Shown here: positions 1-31,307 of the stretch, piece after piece
Layout of the letters: each line of letters begins with the position of its first letter
Position numbering within the stretch: position 1 is the stretch's first letter
Assembly: GCA_031459715.1 (NCBI GenBank)
Contig: JAVKIA010000015.1
Coordinates: 1-60,698, forward strand
Direction: 5' to 3'
DNA from: Armatimonadota bacterium
GTDB taxonomy: Bacteria > Sysuimicrobiota > Sysuimicrobiia > Sysuimicrobiales > Humicultoraceae
Length of the DNA: 60,698 nt
Program-made: the position numbers and the translations under genes
The notes under the pieces: generated by a model
What the model was told of the DNA's origin: nothing
Database searches by the model: none
The model's input: the letters and a program-made list of their open reading frames with translations, nothing else

Positions 1-2237
<2,237 letters not shown>

Positions 2238-2271
2238 GGTCTGTCCTCGTCTCGGTTCTGCTGCACCGCGG

Positions 2272-2745
2272 TCACCAGCGATAGTGGGCGAAGGCCTTGT
2301 TGGCCTCGGCCATGCGGTGGGTGTCCTCGCGCTTCTTCACCGCGCCCCCCTGGCCCACCGAAGCGTCCAGAATCTCCGCCGCCAGCTTGGCCGGCATGCC
2401 CCGACGGTCTCGCCGCTGGCGGGCGAATTCCGTCAGCCAGCGAAGGCCCAGGGAGAGCCGCCGCTCCGGCCGCACCTCAATGGGCACCTGGTAGGTGGCT
2501 CCGCCCACGCGCCGCGGCCGCACCTCCAGCAGAGGCATGACGTTGCCCAGGGCCTTGTCCAGCACCTTGACCGGGTCCTGGCCCGACTTGCTCTTCACCT
2601 CGTCCAGTGCCGCATAGACGATGCGCTCGGCCAGGCTCTTCTTCCCCCGCTGCATCACCTTGTTGATCAGCCGCTGCACGGTTACGTTGCCGTACAGGGG
2701 GTCAGGGGGGATCACCCGCCGGGGAGCCGGTCCCTTTCTGGGCAT
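2272..2745 (-). CDS. rpsG: 30S ribosomal protein S7
   Basis: Primary rRNA-binding protein that nucleates the head of the small subunit. It has 157 residues, as usual, and the canonical N-terminus [10 protein letters not shown]. The basic [14 protein letters not shown]-like core is present (here [17 protein letters not shown]), as is the C-terminal region ending in AHYRW. It sits 15 bases after rpsL and 34 bases before fusA, the conserved str order. No unusual feature. Confidence 0.98.
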
Positions 2746-2760
2746 GCTGCCTCCCTCGCC

Positions 2761-3138
<378 letters not shown>

Positions 3139-3385
3139 CCTCTCCTCCTTCCACACTTCATGCGGCGGCCTGCCGCCGCACACATAGAAGCCCTCCGCCA
3201 CGGGGGAAGAGGGCGATCACCGCCGCGCGATGTCCGGCGCGGTGGCGCCGGATTATCGCAAGCCTTCTCCGCCGCTATAGAGCCTGCGCCATACGAGGCA
3301 CCGGAGATGGTGCCCTGCGGCGCATCCCAGGTACTCTCCGGGGACCTAAGTAGAGGCTACGCGCTGGAGAGCCCCGATTGTCGCG

Positions 3386-3670
3386 CTACGCCCCCGGCGG
3401 CGTCGGCGGCTCCAGCACCGCGGCCGCAGCCGCGCCCACGGCAATCCCGCAGGCCCGGCCCAGCTCCCGCATGGAGTCCACCTCCACGAGGGGCACTCCC
3501 CGCTCCTGAGCGGCGCGGATAACCGGCTCGGTCACCTTCCGGTCGGCATCTCGCGCCACCAGGACCAGCCGCGCCCGCCCCCCGCGAACCGCCTTGGCCG
3601 TCTGGCTGGCGCCAACCGCCCGCGCCTCGGCGGCCCGGATCTGCTCCAGGGGCGGAAGCGTGGCGGCCAT
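3386..3670 (-). CDS. L7Ae/L30e-family ribosomal protein (YbxF/RplGB-like)
   Basis: Small 94-residue protein of the L7Ae/L30e/S12e/Gadd45 fold, whose bacterial members bind kink-turn RNA. A GGRARLVLVARDAD-like strand-turn and a conserved VPLVEVDSMRELGRACG stretch match the YbxF/RplGB type. In Bacillota the same gene lies between rpoC and rpsL. Here it keeps its place before rpsL, but a block of opposite-strand pilus genes separates it from rpoC. The C-terminus is alanine- and proline-rich. Family assignment is from pattern and position; the precise RNA target is not known from sequence. Confidence 0.88.
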   Translation of the reverse strand: MAATLPPLEQIRAAEARAVGASQTAKAVRGGRARLVLVARDADRKVTEPVIRAAQERGVPLVEVDSMRELGRACGIAVGAAAAAVLEPPTPPGA

Positions 3671-3917
3671 CGCTCAACCTTACGAAGGATAGCACCCGCT
3701 TCCGGGGATGTCAAAGACCCCTGCCTGCTAGTTGAAGAGCCGTTCGGGGAAGCCCTGGGGGGCAGCCGGATACGGGGGAGGTCTAAATCCCGGGGCACTT
3801 GGCTATAACCTTGTGAGAACCCGGGGGGCAGCTTGGGGCAGGAGCTCCCGCTTACGTCCGGGCATCGGGGAGGGCATCCACGCCGATGCTGCTCCCCCTT
3901 GGCGCCAGGGAGACACA
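3671..3917. other. Divergent intergenic region between the L7Ae-like gene and the pilus operon
   Basis: This 247-base gap must hold the promoters for both directions. On the plus strand a TATAAC box (3804-3809) resembles a -10 element but has no convincing -35. An inverted repeat with arms GCATCGG and CCGATGC (3862-3868 and 3883-3889) lies 30-55 bases before the ATPase start, and CTCCCC at 3892-3897 could pair alternatively with GGGGAG. I looked for c-di-GMP riboswitch consensus blocks and did not find them. The regulatory role is unproven. Confidence 0.35.
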
Positions 3918-5816
3918 ATGGCGAAGACCGCACGCACGGCGGGTTCCCCCCTGCAGCGGCGGCTCCTCGCACTGCTGGACGACCACGCCGGCGACCGGGA
4001 CCAGGTGACGGCGGCGAGCCTGGCCGCGAGCCTGGCCGTGTCGGTAGCGGAGGTCGAGGCCGAGCTGGAGAGCCTGGTCCTGCTGGGCAACCTCATCCGC
4101 ACCAGCGGGGAGGATGGCCAGGTGCGCTACAGCCCGGCCCCGCGGCGGAGGCTCCTGGGGCACATGCTGGTGGACGCCGGCCTGATCAGCGAAGCCCAGC
4201 TCCAGGAGGCGCTGGCCGAGCAGCAGCAGACCGGGGAGCGGCTGGGGCGCATCCTGGTCGACCGGGGGTACGTGAGCAAGCAGGCCCTGGGGCAGATGCT
4301 GGAGGCGCAGCGGGGCGTCCCCTACCTCAACCTGTCCACGTACCCCATCGACGAGAAGCTGGTGCGGGAGCTGCCGGAGTGGGTGATCCTGCAGCACAAG
4401 GTCGTGCCTGTGGCCCGCGTGCGGCAGGAGGTCCACCTGGCCATGCTGGACCCCACGGATGTCTTGGCCATCGACACGGTGGCGCGGATGCTCGGGGGGC
4501 GGGTCCGCCCTTTCCTCACCACGGAGCGCGACTTCGACTGGGCGGTAACCAGGTACCTGGACGTGCGGCGGCGGGTCGGGGAGAGCCTTCTGGCGGTGCC
4601 CGAGGAGCCCGACAGCCCGCCCGGCGCGGCGACCGTGGTGACCGAGGCGGCCGACGCTCCGCCCGTGGTGCGGGTGCTTAACTCCATCCTGGGAGACGCG
4701 GTGCGCATTGGAGCCACGGACATCCACATCGAGCCGGATGCCGATCAGGCTCGGGTTAGGATGCGGGTGGACGGGCTCCTGCACGACAAGGCGACCCTGC
4801 CCCCGGGGGTGGCCGGCGCGGTGATCTCCCGTCTGAAGGTCCTTGCCGGCGTGGACATCGCAGAGCGTCTGCGGCCCCAGGACGGCCGCATCCTCCTGGA
4901 GATCGAGGGGCGGCAGTACGACTTGCGCCTGGCTACGGTGGGCACCGCCTACGGGGAGCGCGCCGCCGTCCGGTTGCTGAACACTCAACAGGTCCTGCTG
5001 GGCCTGGAGCGGCTCGGCCTCTTCCCCCAGCAGCAGGCTGTCCTGGAGCGTCTGCTGGCCCGACCCCACGGGATGCTCCTGGTCACCGGACCCACCGGCA
5101 GCGGCAAGACCACCACCCTCTATGCCGCCCTGCGCCACATCAACGCCCGCACCCGCAACATCATGACCATTGAGGATCCGGTGGAGTACCGCCTGCCGGG
5201 GATTACCCAGATCCCGGTGCGGGAGAAGGCGGGGGTGACCTTCGGCCTGGGACTGCGGGCCATCCTGCGGCAGGACCCCGACGTGGTCATGGTGGGGGAG
5301 ATCCGCGATGCTGAAACCGCCACCATCGCCGTCCAGGCCGCCCTCACCGGCCACCTGGTACTGTCCACGCTCCACACCAGCCACGCCGCCGGTGCCCTGG
5401 TGCGCCTGCTGGACATGGGCATGGAGCCCTACCTGCTGACCTCTTCGGTCCTGGCGGTGGTGGGTCAACGGCTCCTCCGGGTTCTCTGCACTGCCTGCCG
5501 ACGGCGGGGCAGGGCCAGCGCCGAGGAGGCGGAGATGCTGCGGGGCCAGGGGGAGCACCCGCGCCTCTTCCGGCCCGCAGGTTGTCCCGAGTGCGGAGAC
5601 CTGGGCTACAAGGGACGCACTGGCATCTTCGAGATCATGGCCATGACCGAGGACCTCCGCGAACTGGTCCTGCAGCGCCGGCCGGCCAGCGCACTGCAGG
5701 CGACTGCTGTGGCCGCGGGCATGCAGACGCTGCAGGAGTCGGCGCGGCGCAAGGTCCTGGAAGGGATTACCAGCACCGAGGAGTACCGCCGCCTGCTCCT
5801 GGCGGAGGAGGGATGA
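3918..5816 (+). CDS. gspE: Type IV pilus/type II secretion assembly ATPase with N-terminal winged helix and MshEN domain
   Basis: Cytoplasmic hexameric ATPase of the GspE/PilB family (632 residues) that drives pseudopilus extension. Start ATG chosen because AGGGAGA precedes it; the frame is open for a further 62 codons upstream without family similarity. Order of parts: a winged-helix-like region (about 10-70); an MshEN region with two tandem copies of the LGxxLxxxGxxxxxxLxxxLxxQ pattern (about 80-102 and 108-131), the signature of the c-di-GMP-binding MshEN family; Walker A GPTGSGKT at 391-398; a conserved Asp/His-box region; and a zinc tetracysteine (C524, C527, C556, C559). First gene of a seven-gene operon, sharing ATGA with the next gene. 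The winged helix is predicted from pattern only. Confidence 0.92.
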   Translation: MAKTARTAGSPLQRRLLALLDDHAGDRDQVTAASLAASLAVSVAEVEAELESLVLLGNLIRTSGEDGQVRYSPAPRRRLLGHMLVDAGLISEAQLQEALAEQQQTGERLGRILVDRGYVSKQALGQMLEAQRGVPYLNLSTYPIDEKLVRELPEWVILQHKVVPVARVRQEVHLAMLDPTDVLAIDTVARMLGGRVRPFLTTERDFDWAVTRYLDVRRRVGESLLAVPEEPDSPPGAATVVTEAADAPPVVRVLNSILGDAVRIGATDIHIEPDADQARVRMRVDGLLHDKATLPPGVAGAVISRLKVLAGVDIAERLRPQDGRILLEIEGRQYDLRLATVGTAYGERAAVRLLNTQQVLLGLERLGLFPQQQAVLERLLARPHGMLLVTGPTGSGKTTTLYAALRHINARTRNIMTIEDPVEYRLPGITQIPVREKAGVTFGLGLRAILRQDPDVVMVGEIRDAETATIAVQAALTGHLVLSTLHTSHAAGALVRLLDMGMEPYLLTSSVLAVVGQRLLRVLCTACRRRGRASAEEAEMLRGQGEHPRLFRPAGCPECGDLGYKGRTGIFEIMAMTEDLRELVLQRRPASALQATAVAAGMQTLQESARRKVLEGITSTEEYRRLLLAEEG

Positions 5817-7015
5817 TGCCCACCTACGAGTACCTCAGCCGCGACGCGCGGGGCCTGCTGGTCAGGGGGCAGGTGGAGGCAGAGGACGCCGCCCGCGCCC
5901 GGGCGCGGTTGCGGGAGCAGGGGCTCTACGTCACCTCGCTGCGCATCGCGGGCGCTGGCCTGTGGCGCGGCCCTCGTCGTCCCCAGCCGGCGGAGGTCGC
6001 CCTGCTGACGCACCACCTGGCTATGCTGCTGGCAGCCGGCGTGCCTCTCTCTCCCGCCCTGGATACCCTGGCGGAGCAGACGGAGGATCCCGGGACGCGC
6101 AGCATCCTGTGGGACCTGGCGCAGGACATCAAGGAAGGAAAGAGCCTTTCTGCGGCCCTGGGGGGCTATCCCGACCTCTTTCCCGCCCTCTATGTGGGAA
6201 TCGTGCGCAACGGCGAGTTGAGCGGCCGGCTGGACGAGGCCCTGGGCCGGCTGGCCGCCTACCTGGAGCGGGATCAGGAGTTCCGCCGCCGGGTGCGGGA
6301 GGCGCTGGTCTACCCGGGACTGGTCCTGGCCCTGGCGGGGATCGTCGTGGTCGTCTTCCTCACCTTCATCATCCCCGCTTTCGACCGGGTCTACCGCAAC
6401 AGCGGAGCGCGCCTCCCCCTGGCGACCCGGGCCCTGGTGGCCAGCAGCACCCTCTTCCGCCACAACCTCCCTCTGGCCGCCCTGGCCGGAGCAGCGATCC
6501 TGCTGCCGCCTGCGCGGCGGGCGCTGTGGGAGACCATCGCCGGGCCGGCCCGGCGCCTGGTCCTGCGGCTGCCCCAGGCGGCCTCGCTGGCCCGGACCGT
6601 CGCCCTCTCCCGCTTCGTCCACGCCCTGGGGGCGATGCTGCAAAGCGGTGTCCCCGTGCTGACGGCGCTGGAGGTGGCCGGGGAAGCGGTGGGGACAGCG
6701 GACTTTCGCACCGCCATACGCGAGCTGGCAGCTCGTGTCAGCGGCGGGTGCCGGCTGGGCGACTCCCTGCGCCAGACCGGAATGTTCCCGCCAATGGTCG
6801 TACGAATGGTGGCGCTGGGGGAGGAGTCCGGCCGGCTGGACGAGATGCTGCAGCGCGCCGGCGCAGTCTTGGACCGGGAATTCGAGCTATGCATGCGCCG
6901 CCTCCTCACGTTCCTGGAGCCGGCGCTGACCCTGCTGCTGGGCGGGGTCATCGGGGCAATTCTCCTGGCGCTGTACCTGCCCATCTTCGGCCTGTCCCGG
7001 GCGTTGGTGCGCTGA
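5813..7015 (+). CDS. gspF: Pilus/type II secretion inner-membrane platform protein
   Basis: Polytopic platform protein of the GspF/PilC family (400 residues) that couples the ATPase to pseudopilin polymerisation. It begins MMPTYEYLSRDARG, typical of the family, and has two T2SSF repeats (about 65-190 and 270-395), each followed by hydrophobic segments. The first helices include a VVVVFLTFIIPAF stretch and the last one ends in LLALYLPIFGL. The ATG at 5813 overlaps the stop of the ATPase gene. The next ATG at 5816 is equally plausible because GGAGGAGGG lies just before both. Translational coupling to the ATPase is likely. Confidence 0.93.
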   Translation: MMPTYEYLSRDARGLLVRGQVEAEDAARARARLREQGLYVTSLRIAGAGLWRGPRRPQPAEVALLTHHLAMLLAAGVPLSPALDTLAEQTEDPGTRSILWDLAQDIKEGKSLSAALGGYPDLFPALYVGIVRNGELSGRLDEALGRLAAYLERDQEFRRRVREALVYPGLVLALAGIVVVVFLTFIIPAFDRVYRNSGARLPLATRALVASSTLFRHNLPLAALAGAAILLPPARRALWETIAGPARRLVLRLPQAASLARTVALSRFVHALGAMLQSGVPVLTALEVAGEAVGTADFRTAIRELAARVSGGCRLGDSLRQTGMFPPMVVRMVALGEESGRLDEMLQRAGAVLDREFELCMRRLLTFLEPALTLLLGGVIGAILLALYLPIFGLSRALVR

Positions 7016-7031
7016 AGGACCGGAGGAGGTC

Positions 7032-7067
7032 ATGAGCAGCCGATGGGGAGGCGACACCAACCGGTAA
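7032..7067 (+). CDS. Possible 11-codon leader ORF between gspF and the first pseudopilin
   Basis: An ATG sits two bases after GGAGGAGG, the strongest ribosome binding site in this operon, and opens an 11-codon frame (MSSRWGGDTNR) ending in TAA. The stop overlaps another purine-rich AAGGAGGG. It begins 16 bases after the gspF stop. It could be a leader peptide, a decoy start or chance. There is no homology evidence, so this is a speculative call. Confidence 0.25.
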   Translation: MSSRWGGDTNR

Positions 7068-7167
7068 GGAGGGTGGTTCCCTCATTGCACGGTCTGGCAG
7101 AGTCTCTCAGCCAGCAACCATGCCTGCCTTTGTAACGCACCAACAGTACAGCAAGGAGGGATGGAGG

Positions 7168-7569
7168 ATGCGGCAATGGTCTGGTGAAGGCGGCTTCACA
7201 TTCGTCGAGGTGCTGGCGGTGGTGCTGCTGCTGGGGATCCTGGTCCTGGTGGCGCTGCCCAACTACTTCGGGGCGGAGAACGACGCGCGGCGACAGGTGG
7301 ACCGGGCCAACGTCCGGGCCATCAACGCGGCGCTGGCGCTCTACCGGTTCCGCAACAACGGGAGCTGCCCGGTGGCGGCCGAGCCCGGGACGACGTTTAC
7401 CGAGTTCCTGGCCGACACCACCTACTTCCCGGACGGCGCGCCCACCGACCCGTGGACCGGCAGCAGTGCAGCGTACGGCACCACGTATGACGCCACCCTG
7501 TGCCGGGTGCAATTGAGCGCGGGCGGCGTCAACCACGACGCCAGCAGCTCCAGCGGCCACGGCCCGTAG
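7168..7569 (+). CDS. GspG-like major pseudopilin
   Basis: Pilin-like subunit of 133 residues. A short basic leader ends in GG, followed by the mature start FTFVEVLAVVLLLG with Glu at +5. Prepilin peptidase would therefore cleave after the second glycine (residue 9). A hydrophobic polymerisation helix follows. The periplasmic part contains a YFPDGAPTDPWTG segment resembling the PxDPWG loop of GspG pseudopilins, and two cysteines (in SCPV and TLCRV) that could form a disulfide. AAGGAGGG precedes the ATG at normal spacing; upstream in-frame codons would destroy the leader. It is the only pseudopilin of the operon with a substantial gap before it, which fits higher expression. Confidence 0.88.
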   Translation: MRQWSGEGGFTFVEVLAVVLLLGILVLVALPNYFGAENDARRQVDRANVRAINAALALYRFRNNGSCPVAAEPGTTFTEFLADTTYFPDGAPTDPWTGSSAAYGTTYDATLCRVQLSAGGVNHDASSSSGHGP

Positions 7570-7617
7570 CCTCGAGGCCGGGCGACCGCGGTCTCTTCAC
7601 AGGGGCGGCCTCCGGGT

Positions 7618-8064
7618 GTGAAGGTACCGGTGCGCCCTGGCGGCTTCTCCTTCCTGGAGCTGCTGGTGGTTGTGGGCCTTCTGGCCATCTTGCTGGTCGT
7701 GGCGCTGCCGCAGCTGTTCGCGCCGGAGGAGCTCGGCGTGGAGACGACCGCTCGGCAGGTGGCCGCCGACCTAGTCCTGGCCCGCCGCCTGGCCATCGCC
7801 CGCCGGATGCCGTACGTGGTCTCCTTCGCACCCCCCGGAGGTCCGTACACCGCATACACGGTCGCGCCCCAGGGCGGCGCGCCGGAGCCAGACTTCCCCA
7901 AGAGCCTGCCGGAGGGGATCGCGGTCACCGGCAGCGACCTGGTGACCTTCCAGCCCTCGGGCGCAGCGTCTGCGGCCGCCCGCCTGAGGTTCGCCGCTGG
8001 CGGGGCGACTGCACAGGTCGACGTGGCGGCGGGCACGGGAAGGGTCCGGGTCAGCGCACCGTGA
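7618..8064 (+). CDS. GspH/FimT-type minor pseudopilin
   Basis: 148-residue pseudopilin. The N-terminus MKVPVRPGG|FSFLELLVVVGLL shows a basic leader, a Gly-Gly cleavage site, Glu at +5 and a polymerisation helix. It is followed by the TARQVAADLVLARRLAIAR pattern typical of the GspH/FimT family, where the helix continues into ETTARQV-type repeats. The start is a GTG with only a weak ribosome binding site, so the exact start is less certain than the family. Its stop codon overlaps the GTG proposed for the next gene. Likely a minor tip-complex subunit. Confidence 0.85.
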   Translation: MKVPVRPGGFSFLELLVVVGLLAILLVVALPQLFAPEELGVETTARQVAADLVLARRLAIARRMPYVVSFAPPGGPYTAYTVAPQGGAPEPDFPKSLPEGIAVTGSDLVTFQPSGAASAAARLRFAAGGATAQVDVAAGTGRVRVSAP

Positions 8065-8528
8065 GGCCGCGGGGCGGAGTGGCGAAAACGCAGGCGGTCA
8101 CCGCAAGGCCCCAAGGCGTCGTTATGGCGCAGGCCGGCATCACCCTGGTCGAGCTCCTGGTGGCGGCGCTGCTGGTGGGCCTGGCCCTCGTGCCGCTAGT
8201 GCACCTCTACCCGGGGCTTCTGGAGGCCAACCGGGAAGGGGAGACGGCAATGCGCCTGGGCGTGGCCGCTTCCCGCAAGCTGGAGGAGCTCGTCGCCGCC
8301 ATGCGCAGCGATATCGACGCCGTCTCCTCAGGGGCAGAGGGCTGTGGCGACCTGCCCGCGTGCCGCCTGGAGTGGACGGTCCAGTCCGAGCAGTCCAGCC
8401 CCACCCCGGGGGTGGGCGCGCTGAAGAGCGTGGGTGTGCGGGCGTGTGCAGACGCCGACGGCAGCCTGACCTGCGACGCTGGCGAGACGCAGGTGCGCTA
8501 TGACACCAGGGTCACCTCGCGGCCCTAG
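8061..8528 (+). CDS. PilV/GspI-like minor pseudopilin
   Basis: Pseudopilin with mature start ITLVELLVAALLVGLALVP (Glu at +5) and four cysteines in the periplasmic part (CGDLPAC, RACADAD, LTCDAG). I prefer the GTG that overlaps the preceding stop as GTGA: the same junction occurs at the last gene of this operon, and it gives a 26-residue leader with four basic residues. Starting at the ATG at 8124 would leave an uncharged five-residue leader. 155 residues with the GTG, 134 with the ATG. Probably a minor subunit of the pseudopilus tip. Confidence 0.75.
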   Translation: MRPRGGVAKTQAVTARPQGVVMAQAGITLVELLVAALLVGLALVPLVHLYPGLLEANREGETAMRLGVAASRKLEELVAAMRSDIDAVSSGAEGCGDLPACRLEWTVQSEQSSPTPGVGALKSVGVRACADADGSLTCDAGETQVRYDTRVTSRP

Positions 8529-10032
8529 GCTCCGCTGCGGTGAGGCCGGCCTCTCCCTGGTCGAGGTCCTCCTTGCCGTGCTCCTCCTCTCGCTTGTGGT
8601 CGGCGGGCTGCTGCCGCTGCTCGGCGGCGCCGAGGGATCGTACCAGGAGACGCGGCGCCGCCAGGAGCTGGTGCAGAATGCCCGCGTGGCGCTGGACCTG
8701 CTGCTGCGCCAGGTGCGGGCGGCCGAGTCCTTCCGGGTGATCTCCCCCGGGCTGATCCGCCTGACCCTCTTCTGGGGAGACGGCAGCGGGGCCATGCCTA
8801 CAGTGGAGTACGTGCTGGACGGGACTGGCGGCGAGCTGTCATACCGCTGGAGCAACGACTGGGACTACCGGCGGCAGATCACGGTGACCGCGGTGCAGAC
8901 CACGCCGGCAGGGTACGCCGTCCCTGTGGTTGTCGACCACGCCGCTCTGGTCGCCGCCGGCAAGAGCCTTCCCGGGGGCGAAGACGTGCGGATCAAGTAC
9001 TGGAACGGGACGGCGATGGCGGAGCTGGACCGGGTGCTGGATCCCCTCTCTACCTGGAACACCTCTGCGGTGAAGCTGTGGTTCCCCCTGCGGGCCCCTA
9101 TCGTCTCCGGGCAAGCCGACGCCGGCTACTACCTCTACTACGGCAACCCTGCGGCCCCGCCACCCCCGGCCCGCGGGGACAACGTCTTCCTGGACTATGA
9201 GGACGGCAGCACCCTCGGCGGCTGGATACGCAGGGATCCCTGCGCCCCCGCGCCCCCTGCCGGGTATGCACCCTCTGCCGACGGCTTCGTCTTCCAGACA
9301 ACTAGCGGCAACAACTGTTACCGGCGGCTGAGCAAGAACGTCCCCCACGAGGACGTGGAGATCTTCTGGGGATCCCGCAGCGGCGCGCCGGGGGATCGGG
9401 CAGCCAACGACCGGCATGTGGTGGGTGTGGGGGCCAGGCTCAGCGCCTCCGGCGCCGGCTACCTGGTAGTCCCGGGCGAGGATCTCAACCGTCGCCTGCG
9501 CATCCGGGAGGTCACCGCCTGGAACGTCGACGGAAGCATCCTGGCCCAGACCGCCCGGAATGCGACCCTCTACCGTGTGATCCCGGGGAGAGACTACTAC
9601 GCGCGCTTCTCCCTGGTGGGTTCGACCCTGCAGGCCAAGTTCTGGCCGGCCAGCACCGCCGAGCCCGCGGGGTGGATGCTCTCCGCTGCGGACGCCACCT
9701 ACGCGGCGGGGGCGTACTATGCCCTGGTGGACGGCCACGACGCCCCCCAGGATCACCGCCACCGCCGGGTGATCGTCCGCCCCCGGGTGCAGCTCGAGCC
9801 CCTCCTCGCCCTGGGCGGTGAGGTTTCAGGGACGCGCCCGGACGCCCTGGAGGCGCTGGCGGGACCGATCCGCTCCATGACGGTGACCTGCTTTGCCCCC
9901 AACGGGGCCCCGCTGGACTGCTCCCAGACCCCGCAGGTGCGCAGCGTGCAGGTTACCCTGGTGGTCATGGATCCCGACGGCCGGGTCCCCGATCTGGCTG
10001 TGAGCGGCCGGGCCTTCCGTCAGGCACCGTGA
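8500..10032 (+). CDS. GspJ/PilW-like pseudopilin with inserted DUF2341 and lectin-like module
   Basis: 510-residue pseudopilin, far longer than the roughly 180-220 usual for GspJ/PilW. Leader MTPGSPRGPRLRCGEAG, then LSLVEVLLAVLLL with Glu at +5. Residues 1-118 form a normal pilin N-terminus (helix, first strands ending near TVEYVLDGTGGELSYRW), and 453-510 look like the C-terminal strands of the same fold (SMTVTCFAPNG, VRSVQVTLVVMD). Between them is an insert: a DUF2341-like region (about 119-225, with WDYRRQITV and YYLYYGNP) and a beta-rich, LamG-like region (about 226-445) ending in RPRVQLEPLLALGGE, resembling the tail that follows DUF2341 in surface proteins. DUF2341 identity is by pattern. 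The gene overlaps the previous one by 29 bases. It may act as an adhesive or ligand-binding tip. Confidence 0.82.
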   Translation: MTPGSPRGPRLRCGEAGLSLVEVLLAVLLLSLVVGGLLPLLGGAEGSYQETRRRQELVQNARVALDLLLRQVRAAESFRVISPGLIRLTLFWGDGSGAMPTVEYVLDGTGGELSYRWSNDWDYRRQITVTAVQTTPAGYAVPVVVDHAALVAAGKSLPGGEDVRIKYWNGTAMAELDRVLDPLSTWNTSAVKLWFPLRAPIVSGQADAGYYLYYGNPAAPPPPARGDNVFLDYEDGSTLGGWIRRDPCAPAPPAGYAPSADGFVFQTTSGNNCYRRLSKNVPHEDVEIFWGSRSGAPGDRAANDRHVVGVGARLSASGAGYLVVPGEDLNRRLRIREVTAWNVDGSILAQTARNATLYRVIPGRDYYARFSLVGSTLQAKFWPASTAEPAGWMLSAADATYAAGAYYALVDGHDAPQDHRHRRVIVRPRVQLEPLLALGGEVSGTRPDALEALAGPIRSMTVTCFAPNGAPLDCSQTPQVRSVQVTLVVMDPDGRVPDLAVSGRAFRQAP

Positions 10033-10553
10033 GGACGCCGACTTCGCGCCACCTCATCACCCGGGAGAGGCCGCTGGGGGAGGAGGGGGTGGCTCTGCCG
10101 CTTGCCCTGCTGGTGCTGCTCGTCCTGTCGATCCTGGCCGTGGCGCTGGCGGAGATGACGGCGGCGGAGGTGGACGTGGGCAGGTGGACGCGCTGGGACC
10201 AGCAGGCCCAATACCTGGCCCAGGCGGCCATAGAGCATCAGGTCTACGCCCTGAAAGCCGACAAGGCTGCCGCCGCCGTGGGGCCAGTCAACTACCCGGC
10301 CACGCCGGGAGCTGAGTACTGGTACAGCACCACCCTGACCTGCCTGCTGCAGTGCGCCGCGGATCGGGAAGTGCGCCGCTGGCGCATCATAGGGACGGGA
10401 GAGATCCGGACACCGGGGGGCGCCGTCCTGCAGCGCCGCGCCGTGCGGGCCGAGGTGGAGATCGCCTACGCCTGGGGATCGGCGGGCCCCACCGCCGGCT
10501 TCATCGTCCCCGCGACCGTGACCTACCTCCGGTGGGAGGAGGTCTACCCCTGA
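10029..10553 (+). CDS. PilX/GspK-like pilus-assembly protein
   Basis: 174 residues. The N-terminus ends in a GEEG|VALPLALLVLLVLSILAVA pattern, which resembles PilX-type N-terminal domains rather than a standard prepilin: the +5 residue after VALP is not Glu, and PilX and GspK helices are known to tolerate this. The rest is a mixed domain with a C-x3-C-type pair (TCLLQC). The GTG start overlaps the previous stop as GTGA. It is the last gene of the operon, and its stop codon directly abuts the stop codon of the convergent rpoC. Which minor-subunit role it has is inferred from gene order. Confidence 0.72.
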   Translation: MRTPTSRHLITRERPLGEEGVALPLALLVLLVLSILAVALAEMTAAEVDVGRWTRWDQQAQYLAQAAIEHQVYALKADKAAAAVGPVNYPATPGAEYWYSTTLTCLLQCAADREVRRWRIIGTGEIRTPGGAVLQRRAVRAEVEIAYAWGSAGPTAGFIVPATVTYLRWEEVYP

Positions 10554-13500
10554 CTACAGCTCGGCCGAGATCCTGATGTTGCGGTAGCGGGACATCCCGG
10601 TGCCCGCCGGGATGAGCTTGCCGATGATCACGTTCTCCTTCAGCCCGATCAGCGGGTCGACCTTCCCCTTGGTCGCCGCGTCGGTGAGGACGCGGGCCGT
10701 CTCCTGAAAGCTGGCGGCGCTGAGGAACGAATCGGTGGCCAGGGAGGCCTTGGTGATCCCCAGCAGGGTCGGCCGGGCCTGCGCCGGCTCCTTACCCTCG
10801 GCGATGGCCCGGGCGTTCTCCTCCTCGAACTCGAACTTGTCCACCAGCTGCCCCGGCAGAAATTCCGTGTCGCCGGCCTCCTCGATCTTCACCCGACGCA
10901 ACATCTGCCGCACGATGATCTCGATGTGCTTGTCGTTAATGTCCACACCCTGGGAGCGGTAGACGGACTGGATCTCCTGCACCAGGTAGGTCTGCAGCGC
11001 CTCCAGGCCCTTGATCCGCAGGATGTCGTGGGGGTTGACCGAGCCCTCGGTGAGCTGGTCGCCCGCCTCCACGCGGTTGCCCTCGGCCACGCGGAGGCGC
11101 ACCCCGTGGGGCACGGCCTGGGTCTGCTCGCCGCCGTCCTTGCCCGTGATGGTGATCCGCCGCGCGCCCTTGGCTTCGCTGATGCTCACCTTGCCGGAGA
11201 TCTCGGCGATGATGGCCTGGCCCTTGGGGCGGCGGGCCTCGAAGAGCTCCTCCACCCGCGGCAGGCCCTGGGTGATGTCGAACCCGGCCACCCCACCGGT
11301 GTGAAAGGTGCGCATGGTCAGCTGGGTCCCCGGTTCCCCGATGGACTGGGCGGCGATGATCCCTACGGCCTCGCCGATCTCCACCAGCTTCCCCGTGGCC
11401 AGGTTACGGCCGTAGCACTTGGCGCAGACGCCATAGCGGCTCTTGCAGGTGAGCACAGAGCGCACCAGCACGCTCTCCACGCCAGACTGTTCCAGCCGGT
11501 CGGCTGTCTCCTCGTCGATCTCCTGGTCTGCCTCCACCAGCACGGCCCGCCCGCGGGGCACCCTGACGTCCTCGGCGGCGATGCGGCCGATGATCCGGTC
11601 GCGCAGAGGCACCACCACCTCATGCCCCTCGGTGATGGCGGTGATACGGACGCCCTCGGTGGTGCGGCAGTCCTCCTCGCGGACGATGACGTCCTGGGCC
11701 ACGTCCACCAGGCGGCGGGTGAGGTAGCCGGACTCGGAGGTGCGGATGGCCGTGTCCGCCAGGCCCTTGCGCTGCCCGTGGGTGGAGATGAAGTACTCCA
11801 GCACGGTGAGCCCCTCGCGGAAGTTGGCCTTGATGGGCAGCTCGATGATCCGCCCGCTGGGGTCGGTCATCAGCCCGCGCATCCCCGCCAGCTGGCGGAT
11901 CTGCTGGATGTTCCCCCGGGCCCCGCTCTGGGCCATCATGTACAGGGGGTTAAAGGGGTCAAAAGCCTCCAGCATGGCATCGGTGATCTCCTCGGTGGCC
12001 TTGGTCCAGACGTCGATGGCCCGCTGGTAGCGCTCCCCGTCGGTGATCAGCCCGCGGCGGTACTGGTTCTCGATGGCGTCGATCTGCCGCTCCGCCTCCC
12101 GCAGGATCCGCTCCTTCTCCTGGGGCACAGCGATGTCGTCGATGGCGATCCCCGAGCCACTGCGGGTGGCGAACCGGAACCCCAGGTCCTTGAGGGCGTC
12201 CAGCAGCTGCACCGTCTTGCTGGAGCCCAGGCGGTTGTAAGCCTCGGAGACCACCGTGGCCAGGACCTTGCGGTCGCAGATCTCGTTGATGAAGCGCAGC
12301 TCCTCGGGAATGGCCTCGTTGAAGATGATCCGGCCCACCGTGGTCTCCACCAGCTCCCCCTCCCGGCCCAGCCGCACCTTCACCCGGGCGTGCAGCTCCA
12401 CGGCCCCGGTCTCGTAGGCCATGAGCACCTCGTTAGGGGTGGAGAAGACCTTGCCCTCCCCCTTGGCCCCCGGCCGCTCCAGCGTCAGGTAGTAGCAGCC
12501 GAAGACGATGTCACGTGTGGGGCTGGTGATGGCCCGGCCGAAGGCCGGCGAGAGGATGTTGTAGGCGGAGAGCATGAGCAGGCGGGCCTCCGCCTGCGCC
12601 GCGGCCGACAGGGGCACGTGCACCGCCATCTGGTCACCGTCGAAGTCGGCGTTGTAGGCGGTGCAGACCAGGGGGTGTACCTGGATGGCTTTCCCCTCAA
12701 TCAGCACCGGCTCAAAGGCCTGGATGCCCAGCCGGTGCAGGGTGGGGGCCCGGTTGAGCAGCACAGGGTGCTCCCGTACCACCTCCTCCAGCACATCCCA
12801 GACCTCCGGGCGGGAGCGCTCCACCATGCGCTTGGCGCTCTTGATGTTCTGCGCCAGCGACTTGTCCACCAGCTTCTTCATGACGAAGGGCTTGAAGAGC
12901 TCCAGGGCCATCTCCTTGGGCAGCCCGCACTGGTGCAGCTTCAACCGCGGTCCGACCACGATCACCGAGCGGCCGGAGTAATCCACGCGCTTGCCCAGAA
13001 GGTTCTGGCGGAAGCGCCCCTGCTTCCCCTTGAGCATGTCGGAGAGCGACTTCAGCGGCCGGTTGTTGGGCCCGGTGACGGGACGGCCGCGGCGCCCGTT
13101 GTCGATCAGCGCGTCCACCGCTTCCTGCAGCATGCGCTTCTCGTTGCGCACGATGATCTCCGGGGCGCCCAGGTCCAGCAGTCGCTTCAGTCGGTTGTTG
13201 CGGTTGATCACCCGGCGGTAGAGGTCGTTCAGGTCACTGGTGGCAAAGCGGCCGCCATCCAGCTGCACCATCGGCCGCAGGTCCGGGGGAATCACCGGAA
13301 TCACATCCAGGATCATCCACGTGGGCCGGTTGCCGCTCTTGCGGAAGGCTTCCACCACCTCCAGGCGCTTGAGGATCTTCATCCGCTTCTGCCCGCCGGC
13401 CTCCCGCAATTCGGCCCGCAGCTGGCGGGAGAGCTTCTCCGGATCGATCTCCGCCAGCAGCTCCCGGATGGCTTCGGCGCCCATGCCCGCCCGGAAGGCG

Positions 13501-13991
13501 GTGCCGTACTTCTCCCGCATCTCCCGGTACTCCGTTTCGCTCAGCAGCTGCTTCTTGGTGAGCGGGGTGGTCCCAGGATCGATGACCACGTAGGAGGCAA
13601 AGTAGACCACCCGCTCCAGGGCCCGCGGCGACATGTCCAGGAGCAGCCCGATGCGGCTGGGCACCCCCTTCAGGTACCAGATGTGGCAGACGGGCGCAGC
13701 CAGGGAGATGTGCCCCATCCGCTCGCGCCGCACCTTGGCCCGGGTCACCTCCACGCCGCAGCGGTCGCAGATGATGCCCTTGAAGCGGATGCGCTTGTAC
13801 TTGCCGCAGTGGCACTCCCAGTCCTTGGTGGGGCCGAAGATGCGTTCACAGAACAGCCCGTCCCGCTCCGGCTTGAGCGTGCGGTAGTTGATGGTCTCCG
13901 GCTTCTTCACCTCGCCGTGCGACCAGAGGCGAATCTGCTCCGGCGAGGCCAGCCCGATCTTCACCGCATCGAAGTTGTTGACGTCTTGCAT
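10554..13991 (-). CDS. rpoC: DNA-directed RNA polymerase subunit beta'
   Basis: 1145 residues, a compact beta' without the large lineage-specific insertions of proteobacteria. The N-terminal zinc ribbon (CHCG and CDRCG within the first 80 residues), the rudder/clamp regions, the catalytic [14 protein letters not shown] with three Mg-binding Asp residues, and the C-terminal cysteine cluster near [13 protein letters not shown] are visible. It begins with ATG overlapping the rpoB stop (TGATG). Its own stop abuts the convergent pilus operon with no intergenic base and no intrinsic terminator between them. Confidence 0.99.
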
Positions 13992-16900
13992 CAGTACTCC
14001 TCCACCAGGGCTTCCTCGCCCTCCAGGTTGATGCCCAGAGCGCGGGCCGTCTCGGCAATATCCTCCTCGATCTCCTTGAGTTCAATCTCCTTCTTGTCTT
14101 CGCTCAGCACCTTTACGTCCAGGCAGAGGGACTGCAGCTCCTTTACCAGGACCTTGAAGGACTCGGGAACGCCGGGTTCCTGGATGTTCTCGCCCTTGAC
14201 GATGGCCTCGTAGGTCTTTACCCGCCCCACCACGTCGTCGGACTTGACCGTGAGCAGCTCCTGCAGGGTGCTGGCGGCGCCGTAGGCTTCCAGGGCCCAG
14301 ACCTCCATCTCCCCAAAGCGCTGGCCGCCGAACTGGGCTTTCCCGCCCAGCGGCTGCTGGGTGATCAGGCTGTAGGGACCGGTGGAGCGGGCGTGGATCT
14401 TGTCCTCCACCAGGTGCAGCAACTTCATCATGTAGATGGAGCCCACTGTGACCTCCCGGTCGAAGGGCTCCCCCGTGCGCCCGTCGATCAGCCGCATCTT
14501 GCCACTCTCCGGCAGGCCGGCCTGACGGAGCAGCTGCTTGATCTCCTCCTCCCGCGGCCCGTCGAAGACCGGGCTCTCCACCCAGATCCCCAGACGGTCT
14601 GCGGCCCAGCCCAGGTGGGTCTCCAGCACCTGCCCCACGTTCATCCGCGAAGGCACCCCCAGCGGGTTGAGCACGATGTCCACCGGTGTACCATCCGGGA
14701 GCGTGGGCATGTCCTCTTCGGGCAGGATCACGGAGATGACACCCTTGTTCCCGTGGCGCCCCGCCATCTTGTCCCCCACGGTGATCTTGCGCTTCTGCGC
14801 CACGTAGACGCGCACCAGGGTGTTCACCCCCGGCGGCAACTCGTCGCCCTGCTCCCGGCTGAACATCTTCACCCCGACGACCTTGCCCTTCTCCCCGTGG
14901 GGCACCTTCAGGGAGGTATCGCGCACCTCCCGCGCCTTCTCCCCGAAGATGGCGCGCAACAGGCGCTCCTCCGCGGTGAGTTCGGTCTCCCCTTTGGGGG
15001 TCACCTTCCCCACCAGGATGTCGCCGGAGCGGACCTCGGCACCGATGCGCACGATCCCCCGCTCGTCCAGGTCGCGCAGCGCCTCCTCGCCCACGTTGGG
15101 GATGTCGCGAGTGATCTCCTCAGGCCCCAGCTTGGTGTCCCGGGCCTCCACCTCGTACTCCTCGATGTGGATGGAGGTGAAGAGGTCCTCCTTCACCAGC
15201 CGCTCGCTGACCACGATGGCGTCCTCGTAGTTGTAGCCCTCCCAGGGCATGAAGGCCACCAGCACGTTGCGCCCCAGGGCCAGCTCCCCCTGGTCCGTGC
15301 AGGGGCCGTCGGCCAGCACCTCACCGGCCTTAACCTCCTGCCCGCTGCGGACGATAGGCACCTGGTTGATGCACGTCCCCTGGTTGCTCCGCTGGAACTT
15401 CACCAGCCGGTAGACGTCCCGCCGCCCGCCAGCCACCTTGACCACGATCTCGTCGGCGGAGACCGCCTCCACCACACCGTCTCGCTTGCAGACCACCACC
15501 GCCCCGCTGTCCACGGCCGCGCGGTACTCCATGCCCGTTCCCACCAGGGGCGCCTCCGTGGTCAGCAGCGGCACCGCCTGGCGCTGCATGTTGGAGCCCA
15601 TCAGGGCACGGTTGGCGTCATCGTGTTCCAGGAAGGGGATGAGGGCGGTGGCCACCGAGACGATCTGCTTGGGGGAGACGTCCATGAAGTCCACCTCTTC
15701 CGGACGCACCAGCTTGATCTCCGAGCCGTGGCGCGCCGTCACCCGCGGACCGACCAGCCGGCCATCCTCATCCAGGACGACGTTGGCCTGGGCGATGACG
15801 TACTTGTCCTCCTCGTCCGCGGTGAGGTAACGGATGCGCCGCGTGACCACGCCCTCTCTCACCTCGCGGTAGGGGGTCTCGATGAAACCCAGGTCGTTGA
15901 CCCGGGCGTAGGTGGCCAGAGAGGAGATCAGGCCGATGTTGGGCCCCTCCGGTGTCTCGATGGGGCACATGCGCCCGTAATGGGAGGCATGCACATCGCG
16001 CACCTCGAATCCAGCGCGCTCGCGGGAAAGGCCCCCCGGCCCCAGGGCTGAGAGGCGTCGCTTGTGGGTCAGCTCCGCCAGGGGGTTGGTCTGGTCCATG
16101 AACTGGGAGAGCTGGCTGGAGCCGAAGAACTCCTTGATCGCCGCCACCACCGGGCGGATGTTGATCAGCACCTGGGGGGTGATCTGCGCCGTGTCCTGGA
16201 TGGTCATGCGCTCGCGGATGACCCGCTCCATGCGCAGCATTCCAATGCGGAACTGGTTCTGCAGCAGCTCCCCCACAGAGCGCACCCGCCGGTTGCCCAG
16301 GTGGTCGATGTCGTCGTCCACGGCGTCCGTCTCGCCGCGCACCAGCCGGCTGAGGTAGCGGATGATCTCGACCATGTCCTCCTTGGTCAGCGTGCGCACA
16401 TCCAGGGGGTGGTGCAGGCCCAGCTTCTTGTTCAGCTTGTACCGCCCCACCCGTCCCAGGTCGTAGCGCCGCGGCTCGAAGAAGAGGGTGTGCATCAGGG
16501 TGCGGGCCGACTCCACCGTGGGCGGGTCCCCCGGGCGCAGGCGGCGGTAGATCTCGATCAGGGCCTCGTCCTGGTTCCGGCTGTTGTCCTTCTCCAGGGT
16601 GGCCTTGAGCACGGGGTCGTCGCCGTAGAGCTTCAGGATCTGCTCGTTACTCTCATAACCCACAGCCCGCAGCAGGACCGTGGCCGGAACCTTGCGCGTG
16701 CGGTCCACGCGCGTCCACAGGACCTTGTTGTTGTCGGCCTCCAGTTCCAACCAGGCACCGCGATGGGGGATGACGGTGGCCGCGGGCAGCGGGCGGCCCG
16801 CGGTGTCCGGAGCAAAGCTGAAATAGACTCCCGGAGAGCGCACCAGCTGGCTGACCACCACGCGCTCCGCCCCGTTGATGATGAAGGTGCCCCGTTCGGT

Positions 16901-17383
16901 CATCAGGGGGAAGTCCCCCATGAAGACCTCCTGTTCCTTGATCTCCCCCGTCTCCCGGATGACCAAGCGGACTTTCACCTTGAGGGCGGCGCTGTAGTTG
17001 TAGTCCCGGTCGCGGCACTCCTCCTCGGTGTACTTCAGTCGCTCGAATCGGTAGCCGCCAAAGTCCAGGACGGCGTCACCGTTGAAGACGCTCCCGCTAG
17101 CTGCCTTGCGCCGGCCGGATTCCACGGCGAAGTGCAGCTCCAGGTTGCCGGTGAAGTCCTGGATCGGCGAGACCTCGGCAAAGACCTCCCGGATCCCTTC
17201 CCGCAGGAACCACTCGTAGGAGCGGCGCTGCACCTCCACCAGGTCGGGGAGGTCGATGATCTCTGGGATCTTGGCGAAGGAGAGCCGTGGGCGCCTCCCC
17301 CGCTTGACCACGCGCGCCTCCAGCCCCAGCTTCTTCAGGGGTGTGGAAGGCCGCATCGCCCTGCGCTTCGTCAGCGTCTTCAC
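13991..17383 (-). CDS. rpoB: DNA-directed RNA polymerase subunit beta
   Basis: Beta subunit, 1130 residues with the start chosen here. The rifampicin-pocket region ([14 protein letters not shown], then [12 protein letters not shown]) and the C-terminal [21 protein letters not shown] block are canonical. I choose the GTG that follows GGAGGTGAG at about 10 bases. An upstream GTG at 17404 would add seven residues but lacks a ribosome binding site. An ATG nine codons further in is also possible. It is coupled to rpoC by a one-base overlap. A promoter-like element sits in the 286-base gap upstream (see separate entry). Confidence 0.98.
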
Positions 17384-17572
17384 GGCGGCAGACCTCACCT
17401 CCACATGAACCGTCGACCGGTCAATGCGCTACACGGAAACGGGCCCCGATGGCGAGCCCCGGGAAGTGCTGGAAATAGTGAAAGACACGCTGGTCAGGCG
17501 TGCCTCGCTCCGGTCATACTGTGAAACCGCGGCCGTAAACCCCCATCCTACCCCGGTCTAGCAGTAACGATT

Positions 17573-30239: not shown

Positions 30240-31307
30240 ATGCCCGCCGCGCGCGCCCAAGCCGCCTCCCCTCCGGACCTGCGCATCGGCACCCGGGCTC
30301 CCCGGATCATGGTGGTGGACGACGAGCCTTCCGTCCTGGAGGTGGTACGCCTGCGCCTGGAGTCCATGGGCGCCACCGTCATCCCCCTCCTGCAGGGCGC
30401 CGACGTCCTCCCCGTGGCCCGCGCCCAGAATCCCGATCTCATCTTGCTGGACATCATGATGCCCGACCTGGACGGCTTCGCGGTAATCCGGGCCCTCAAG
30501 GAAGATGAAGCCACGCGCCAGATCCCGGTGATCTTCATGACGGCGCGGGACGAGCTGGACAGCCGGGTGCAGGGGCTGGACCTGGGAGCGCACGACTACG
30601 TGACCAAACCGTTTAACACCGTCGAGCTGCTGGCCCGCATCCGCGCCGCCCTGCGGGTGAAGGCGCTGCAGGATGAGCTGACCGAGAAGAACAAGATGCT
30701 GCAGCAGCTGGCCACCAGCGACCCCCTCACCGGGCTGCCCAACCGACGCACCTTCGACGAGCAGGTTTTCACGGAGATGGAGCGGGCACGGCGGAACGCC
30801 CAGCCGCTCTCCTGCCTGATCTTCGACATCGATGACTTCAAGGAGATCAACGACATCCACGGGCACCAGGCCGGGGACGAGGTATTGCGGCAAATCGGCC
30901 GGGTACTCACGGGGCGGAAGCGGCGCACCGACCTGGCGGCGCGCTACGGGGGCGAGGAGTTTGTGTGGCTGCTGCCCGGGGCGAACCAGACGGCGGCGGT
31001 AGAGCTGGGCCACTGGCTGCTGCGTACCATCAGTGAGCTGGAAGTGGTGACCACGCAGGTGCCTCTTCGGGTAACCGTCAGCGTCGGCGTCTCCACGTAC
31101 GACCCGGAGGTGCACGGCGACGTCCCCACCGGTGCCCTGCTCCAGCACGCCGATGCCGCGCTGCTGGAGGCGAAACGGGCGGGGAAGGGCCGCGTGGTCT
31201 TCCGGGAGCTGAACGTCCTGCCCGACCCGATGACGGAGGAGCTGGGCGAGCCCGCCGAAGACCAGGCGGGACCCCTTGGCCCCGGCCAGCCCTTCGGAGT
31301 GCTCTGA
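30240..31307 (+). CDS. Response regulator with GGDEF (diguanylate cyclase) output
   Basis: 355 residues. Receiver domain 20-140 with acidic pair DD (27-28), phospho-acceptor D71 in LLDIMMPDLDG, T101 and K123. A short coiled linker leads to a GGDEF domain (155-325): DPLTGLPNRR, FDIDDFKEIND, then RYGGEEF at 235-241. An RxxD (RRTD, 228-231) precedes the active site at the spacing of the product-inhibition I-site. All catalytic residues for c-di-GMP synthesis are present, so an active, feedback-inhibited PleD-like cyclase is likely. It is divergent from the hybrid-less PAS kinase, its probable activator. The stop lies only 5 bases from the convergent tRNA-Leu. Confidence 0.93.
   Translation: MPAARAQAASPPDLRIGTRAPRIMVVDDEPSVLEVVRLRLESMGATVIPLLQGADVLPVARAQNPDLILLDIMMPDLDGFAVIRALKEDEATRQIPVIFMTARDELDSRVQGLDLGAHDYVTKPFNTVELLARIRAALRVKALQDELTEKNKMLQQLATSDPLTGLPNRRTFDEQVFTEMERARRNAQPLSCLIFDIDDFKEINDIHGHQAGDEVLRQIGRVLTGRKRRTDLAARYGGEEFVWLLPGANQTAAVELGHWLLRTISELEVVTTQVPLRVTVSVGVSTYDPEVHGDVPTGALLQHADAALLEAKRAGKGRVVFRELNVLPDPMTEELGEPAEDQAGPLGPGQPFGVL

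Follow-up and report, generated by a model that had tools for sequence, protein, structure and literature searches.

The window analysed here, a 60,698-nucleotide stretch of DNA from an Armatimonadota bacterium (contig JAVKIA010000015.1), encodes an assembly ATPase in which a predicted winged helix precedes tandem MshEN motifs. Together with a PilC platform protein and five pilin-like genes, this ATPase constitutes a small type IV pilus-like system, of which it is the assembly motor. We propose that the tandem motifs bind c-di-GMP, that the winged helix docks a partner, and that these two inputs influence each other, a reading to which we assign a probability of about 0.45, somewhat short of an even chance. 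The protein represents a known motor family with an added domain that is, as far as genomes have been sampled, restricted to one lineage; we consider this structural reading right and the functional one plausible, with the winged helix more probably docking a partner protein than DNA.

The open frame of the ATPase extends back to position 3732. We place its start at ATG 3918, and not further upstream, because a likely ribosome-binding site precedes that codon and orthologs align from about there (Table 1). The preliminary description had assigned the protein to the GspE-type motors, and the T2SSE score, together with a Walker A sequence (GPTGSGKTTT) present in the translation, agrees with a motor of the GspE/PilB class. 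Equivalog models for GspE (TIGR02533, 551 bits), PilB (TIGR02538, 545.5 bits) and ComGA (NF041000, 258.1 bits) all gave strong matches, yet each fell below its curated cut-off (630.25, 675.65 and 300, respectively); we therefore use the designation GspE/PilB-type assembly ATPase and assign the protein to none of these equivalogs.

Table 1. Coordinates in the window of the ATPase gene, its domains and the adjoining pilus genes.
Feature	Position	Strand	Basis
Likely ribosome-binding site, AGGGAG	3907..3912	+	Sequence reading; 5 bases upstream of ATG 3918
GspE/PilB-type assembly ATPase, 632 aa	3918..5816	+	ORF and translation; ATG at 3918, stop at 5816
Predicted N-terminal winged helix, residues 11-73	3948..4136	+	AlphaFold2, fold matches, conservation across nine genomes
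Linker, residues 74-79, with three arginines at 76-78	4137..4154	+	Model: last strand ends at 73, first MshEN helix begins at 80
MshEN motif I, residues 79-102, Leu in place of first Arg	4152..4223	+	Motif table, NF053729
MshEN motif II, residues 108-131, Arg108 retained	4239..4310	+	Motif table, NF053729
Pfam MshEN match (C-terminal part of MshEN module), residues 133-218	4314..4571	+	Pfam, 68.1 bits (cut-off 23.1)
T2SSE ATPase domain, residues 244-625	4647..5792	+	Pfam, 432.7 bits
PilC/GspF platform protein	5813..7015	+	T2SSF, 195.5 bits
Pilin-like protein	7120..7569	+	N_methyl, weak T2SSG
GspH-like minor pilin	7618..8064	+	Pfam
PilV-like minor pilin (our name)	8124..8528	+	Weak N_methyl; order conserved in relatives
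Large PilW-like minor pilin, 510 aa (our name)	8500..10032	+	Weak N_methyl; order in relatives
PilX_N protein	10029..10553	+	Pfam

The pilus cluster and its genomic setting

Within window positions 135-17404, the pilus cluster is flanked by rpoBC and rpsL-rpsG-fusA and lies on the opposite strand from them; it is bounded by rpoC and by a small gene adjoining rpsL. Two relatives (G001 and G004) share this flank to the extent of their contigs; neither rpoBC nor rpsL-rpsG-fusA was found within the stretches examined around the cluster in G016, G019, G008 and G002. Downstream of the ATPase the pilin genes follow in the same order in relatives, as far as contigs reach. The major pilin-like gene, single in the window, has three copies in the same-genus relative G001 (L145:5284-6546) and two in each of G016, G040, G019 and G008. 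The PilW-like minor pilin carries a long insert that has no Pfam match and is DUF2341-like by eye. In G024, where the winged helix is absent, similarity is limited to the two ends of the PilW-like protein, and G010, which has a winged-helix remnant, keeps the insert.

The host genome encodes two other complete MshEN ATPases, both with different N-terminal segments, and a fourth that is cut by a contig end. One of the complete proteins, a second PilB-type ATPase (L003:724-3012, G000:C8), begins with TPR repeats, and a long proline-rich linker leads from these into its MshEN module; the other carries a different, unassigned N-terminal segment. One PilM and two secretins are also present in the genome, none of the three in the pilus cluster.

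Fold, distribution and history of the winged helix

Modelling of residues 1-78 with AlphaFold2, on an alignment of only three sequences (the window protein, L005 and L006), returned helices at residues 11-24, 32-39 and 43-55 and strands at 59-63 and 69-73, with a mean pLDDT of 81.2, block means of 87-93 over residues 31-70, and a pTM of 0.67. The same elements recur when residues 1-224 are modelled from a 40-sequence alignment. Prediction and PDB matches together agree with the element order H1-S1-H2-H3-S2-wing-S3, and residues 11-73 are predicted to form a canonical winged helix. The preliminary description had proposed such a fold at about residues 10-70 and recommended fold prediction of residues 1-75; the marginally longer segment that we modelled bears the proposal out.

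A Foldseek search of the winged-helix model against the PDB gave no match at E <= 0.001. The 50 matches listed, which from their titles we take to be winged-helix or Zalpha-type proteins, have query TM-scores of 0.57-0.77. On re-alignment with VIA-align, 530 of 999 chains reached Z >= 8; the 50 rows listed have Z-scores of 10.0-11.7, with ADAR1 Zalpha first and MarR, ArsR and Fur-type regulators close behind. In Pfam, the window domain matched only HTH families, each below its cut-off, and the nine orthologous N-termini matched EutK_C in six cases (best E 2.2e-5) and HTH_20 in four. An alignment of nine winged-helix N-termini (A1), searched as a profile against 177,635 PDB sequences, reached ADAR1 Zalpha (best E 4e-4) and EutK (0.0063); matches to vinculin, P450 and CAP-repeat proteins were treated as chance.

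Searched through 43 genomes of the phylum, the A1 profile found a full-length match in nine (E <= 9.4e-27), in every case on the orthologous ATPase with PilC as the next gene. The remaining 26 of the 35 in-phylum rows listed are partial and weak (E 1.3e-5 to 0.01); by eye, the four inspected (L124-L127) are three Lhr-type helicases and one RpoN-like protein. A search of 386 genomes, with at most 14 candidates scored per genome, gave four matches outside the phylum, none of them on an ATPase and none with a Walker A or MshEN motif: by eye, L162 is RNase R-like, L163 is SelB-like, and L161 and L164 are shorter HTH-like frames. In these profile searches, which detect only close relatives and would miss sequence-unrelated winged helices, no winged-helix/ATPase fusion appeared in the 343 genomes outside the phylum (if all 43 in-phylum genomes are among the 386), and there was no match at E 1e-5 in 40 genomes from a different phylum, of which three had been sampled before, or in three further genomes. 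The addition thus appears confined to one branch of the phylum as far as genomes have been sampled, and the earlier judgement that a winged helix is unusual on a GspE-type ATPase agrees with the profile survey.

Two of 80 loci in a contig search (L005 and L006) align from the winged helix onward. They are the same as G001 and G040, not additional genomes. Nearest among named records are L005, a CSP1-3 Armatimonadetes MAG with 81% identity, and L006, an ANGP1 MAG with 65%. Among plasmids, the best 10 of at least 5000 matches begin at residue 58 or later and add no further case. CSP1-3 is now called Sysuimicrobiota (PMC11604079), and a text search of the main text of that article returned neither 'type IV pil' nor 'pili'. 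No description of a winged helix on such an ATPase was found in the literature as covered, thinly so for subscription journals.

A phylogeny of 28 ATPases, calculated on the sequence from the MshEN motifs onward, unites the nine winged-helix rows with the G010 remnant, G024 and G030 in one branch (support 100/99), and G024 and G030, which have no winged helix, are nested inside it (100/99). One gain and two losses would be the simplest history; two gains would be an alternative, not favoured as the simplest. In G010 most of the winged-helix coding DNA is missing amid otherwise alignable DNA and the ATPase frame is still open, an alignment pattern indicating removal by internal deletion. The two nested rows and the G010 deletion imply that the motor can do without its winged helix. 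The G002 ATPase has a frame break near residue 518, perhaps an assembly error.

Across six genome pairs that share members, dN/dS ranged over 0.25-0.63 in the winged helix, 0.13-0.39 in MshEN and 0.08-0.26 in the ATPase domain; the winged helix had the highest value of the three in every pair. Such ratios point to purifying selection on the winged helix, as the least constrained of the three regions. Its absence from two nested rows, its deletion in G010 and its standing as the fastest-changing region in all six member-sharing pairs could all be accommodated if it were a fused domain that serves folding or spacing, is largely dispensable and has no specific partner, but dN/dS stays below 1 in all six pairs and fold-defining residues are kept across the alignment of nine genomes, and we regard this explanation as doubtful. 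The winged helices of G003, G008 and G002 differ from the others in charge pattern and in their shorter wing.

The tandem MshEN motifs

The preliminary description had recognized tandem MshEN motifs at about residues 80-131, and both are near-intact: two 24-residue motifs separated by a 5-residue spacer, with NCBIfam NF053729 (MshE-related c-di-GMP-binding domain) scoring 69.7 bits against a cut-off of 38 over those residues. It would have counted loss of the arginine/leucine ligand positions as a refutation. Among the tabulated key residues (R, L, G, a second G, two L and Q in each motif) the sole change is Leu79, the first residue of motif I. A strict Arg consensus at this position fits motif II (Arg108) and not motif I, and the extended consensus (R/K/L)LG fits both; Tyr118 in motif II deviates from a (L/V/I) consensus position. 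The model of residues 1-224 superimposes on c-di-GMP-bound MshE (5htl) with a Z-score of 17.8.

The arginine of motif I is thus formally lost, yet this does not refute a c-di-GMP site. For the GSPII-B domain of Thermus PilF, PMC11731258 gives KD values of 2 nM for K167L, 6 nM for wild type and 150 nM for K167R, and its authors widened the consensus to (R/K/L)LG. Because Leu at the equivalent position binds c-di-GMP more tightly than Arg, we do not read Leu79 as loss of the site, and the notion that binding had disappeared with the Arg-to-Leu change was dropped. In MshE, changes at Arg9, Asp12 and Gln32 apparently cost no more than fivefold (PMC5013675). The motif-II Arg, whose replacement by Ser abolished binding in a Thermus GSPII-A reconstruction according to PMC12002112, is kept in the window protein (Arg108). 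On these sequence grounds it is plausible that the tandem motifs bind c-di-GMP.

We also considered whether proteins that gained the winged helix tend to be those that lost the motif-I Arg, and rejected the idea on residue counts. The first residue is L in five, R in two, F in one and P in one of the nine winged-helix rows; R in seven, K in one and P in one of nine winged-helix-free orthologs with the motif; and R in one of eight paralog or outgroup rows. These counts omit G032, whose contig starts after the motif.

The MshEN module might instead be a structural ring that does not bind c-di-GMP, as in XpsE or Thermus GSPII-A, with the winged helix having taken over control. XpsE is a known non-binder (PMC5013675), motif I lacks its Arg, and PMC12002112 describes GSPII-A as blocked by an N-terminally elongated helix 1 and tight subdomain contacts even with the consensus restored. 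We consider such a ring unlikely: all other key positions are retained, Leu at position 1 raises GSPII-B affinity (PMC11731258), and helix 1 of the window protein begins at residue 80 in the model, no earlier. Binding of c-di-GMP by the motifs is the reading that we carry forward. Five GGDEF matches in the host genome suggest that the host plausibly makes c-di-GMP. One of the five, a response regulator receiver domain fused to GGDEF, lies in the window at 30300-31190 and is a possible source. The genome has two PilZ matches, both in one open frame.

Role of the winged helix and comparison with known motors

Helix 3 of a winged helix is the usual DNA reader. In the nine orthologs its net charge is -1 to -4 and Lys and Arg are absent from residues 43-50 throughout; helix-3 charge alone does not decide on DNA contact. 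The helix-3 Asn and Tyr of Zalpha, which we take to be Z-DNA contacts, align with Glu47 and Glu51 of the window protein; among the matches listed, both positions are also changed in 2l54 relative to other ADAR1 chains. The acidic helix 3 leads us to favour a protein docking or gating module, and a DNA-reading role was lowered in rank on the same ground. If the domain nevertheless bound DNA or RNA, it could autoregulate the cluster in which it is encoded or link the motor to DNA uptake, which a ComEC match in the genome makes possible; the fold is common to many DNA-binding regulators and Zalpha, and four relatives have an HTH-type gene immediately upstream of the ATPase. Set against this are a helix 3 that is acidic in all nine orthologs and glutamates at both presumed Zalpha contact positions, and we judge the nucleic-acid role improbable. 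The upstream gene of those relatives (G008, G002, G010 and G003; L151, L152, L153 and L150) is small and by eye excisionase-like. Its end lies no more than tens of bases from the ATPase start, and the window has no such gene there.

In the mechanism that we propose, Leu79 and Arg108 would each stack on a guanine of c-di-GMP bound by the tandem motifs. The winged helix, one per subunit of a presumed hexamer, would be a docking module and not a DNA reader; once docked, it would recruit or position a system-specific partner and so might keep this motor distinct from the cell's other PilB-type motors. More generally, different N-terminal additions may keep the motors of one cell apart. The least certain step is a probable mutual influence between partner docking and c-di-GMP binding, a suggestion based on the roughly six residues that tie the winged helix, ending at 73, to MshEN helix 1, beginning at 80 in the model. 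In Thermus PilF the first turn of helix 1 must unfold for c-di-GMP binding, and the winged helix, once docked, could keep that turn either folded or unfolded. The model of residues 1-224 (pTM 0.53) does not define domain orientation, so this coupling remains a proposal. It seems rather unlikely that this first turn mediates competition or cooperation between the winged helix and c-di-GMP and so makes the motor a two-input gate on pilus assembly (a partner or nucleic acid, plus c-di-GMP).

The review PMC11656802 regards the part that the MshEN/N1 domain plays in catalysis and extension as poorly understood. A compact domain just before the c-di-GMP pocket, with close relatives that have lost it, offers a ready-made natural comparison, which could test how an N-terminal domain recruits partners and passes a signal on.

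Among other proteins, ADAR1 Zalpha shares its fold with the window domain (Z 11.7, rmsd 2.4 over 67 residues), and MarR and Fur-type regulators lie within about 1-2 Z of it. The winged helices of ADAR1 Zalpha and the EutK C-terminus have weak sequence similarity to the window domain, and their domain context is unrelated. Among motors, the best PDB sequence match is Thermus thermophilus PilF (E 5.9e-136), which likewise has MshEN modules ahead of a T2SSE ATPase and whose GSPII-B motifs still bind with non-Arg first residues (PMC11731258). PilF differs in that it carries three GSPII domains and lacks the winged helix that precedes the single MshEN module of the window protein. Vibrio cholerae MshE has the same 24+5+24 motif arrangement; its Arg9 is preceded by only eight residues, whereas Leu79 of the window protein follows a winged helix, and the three arginines just before Leu79 recall the basic patch of MshE.
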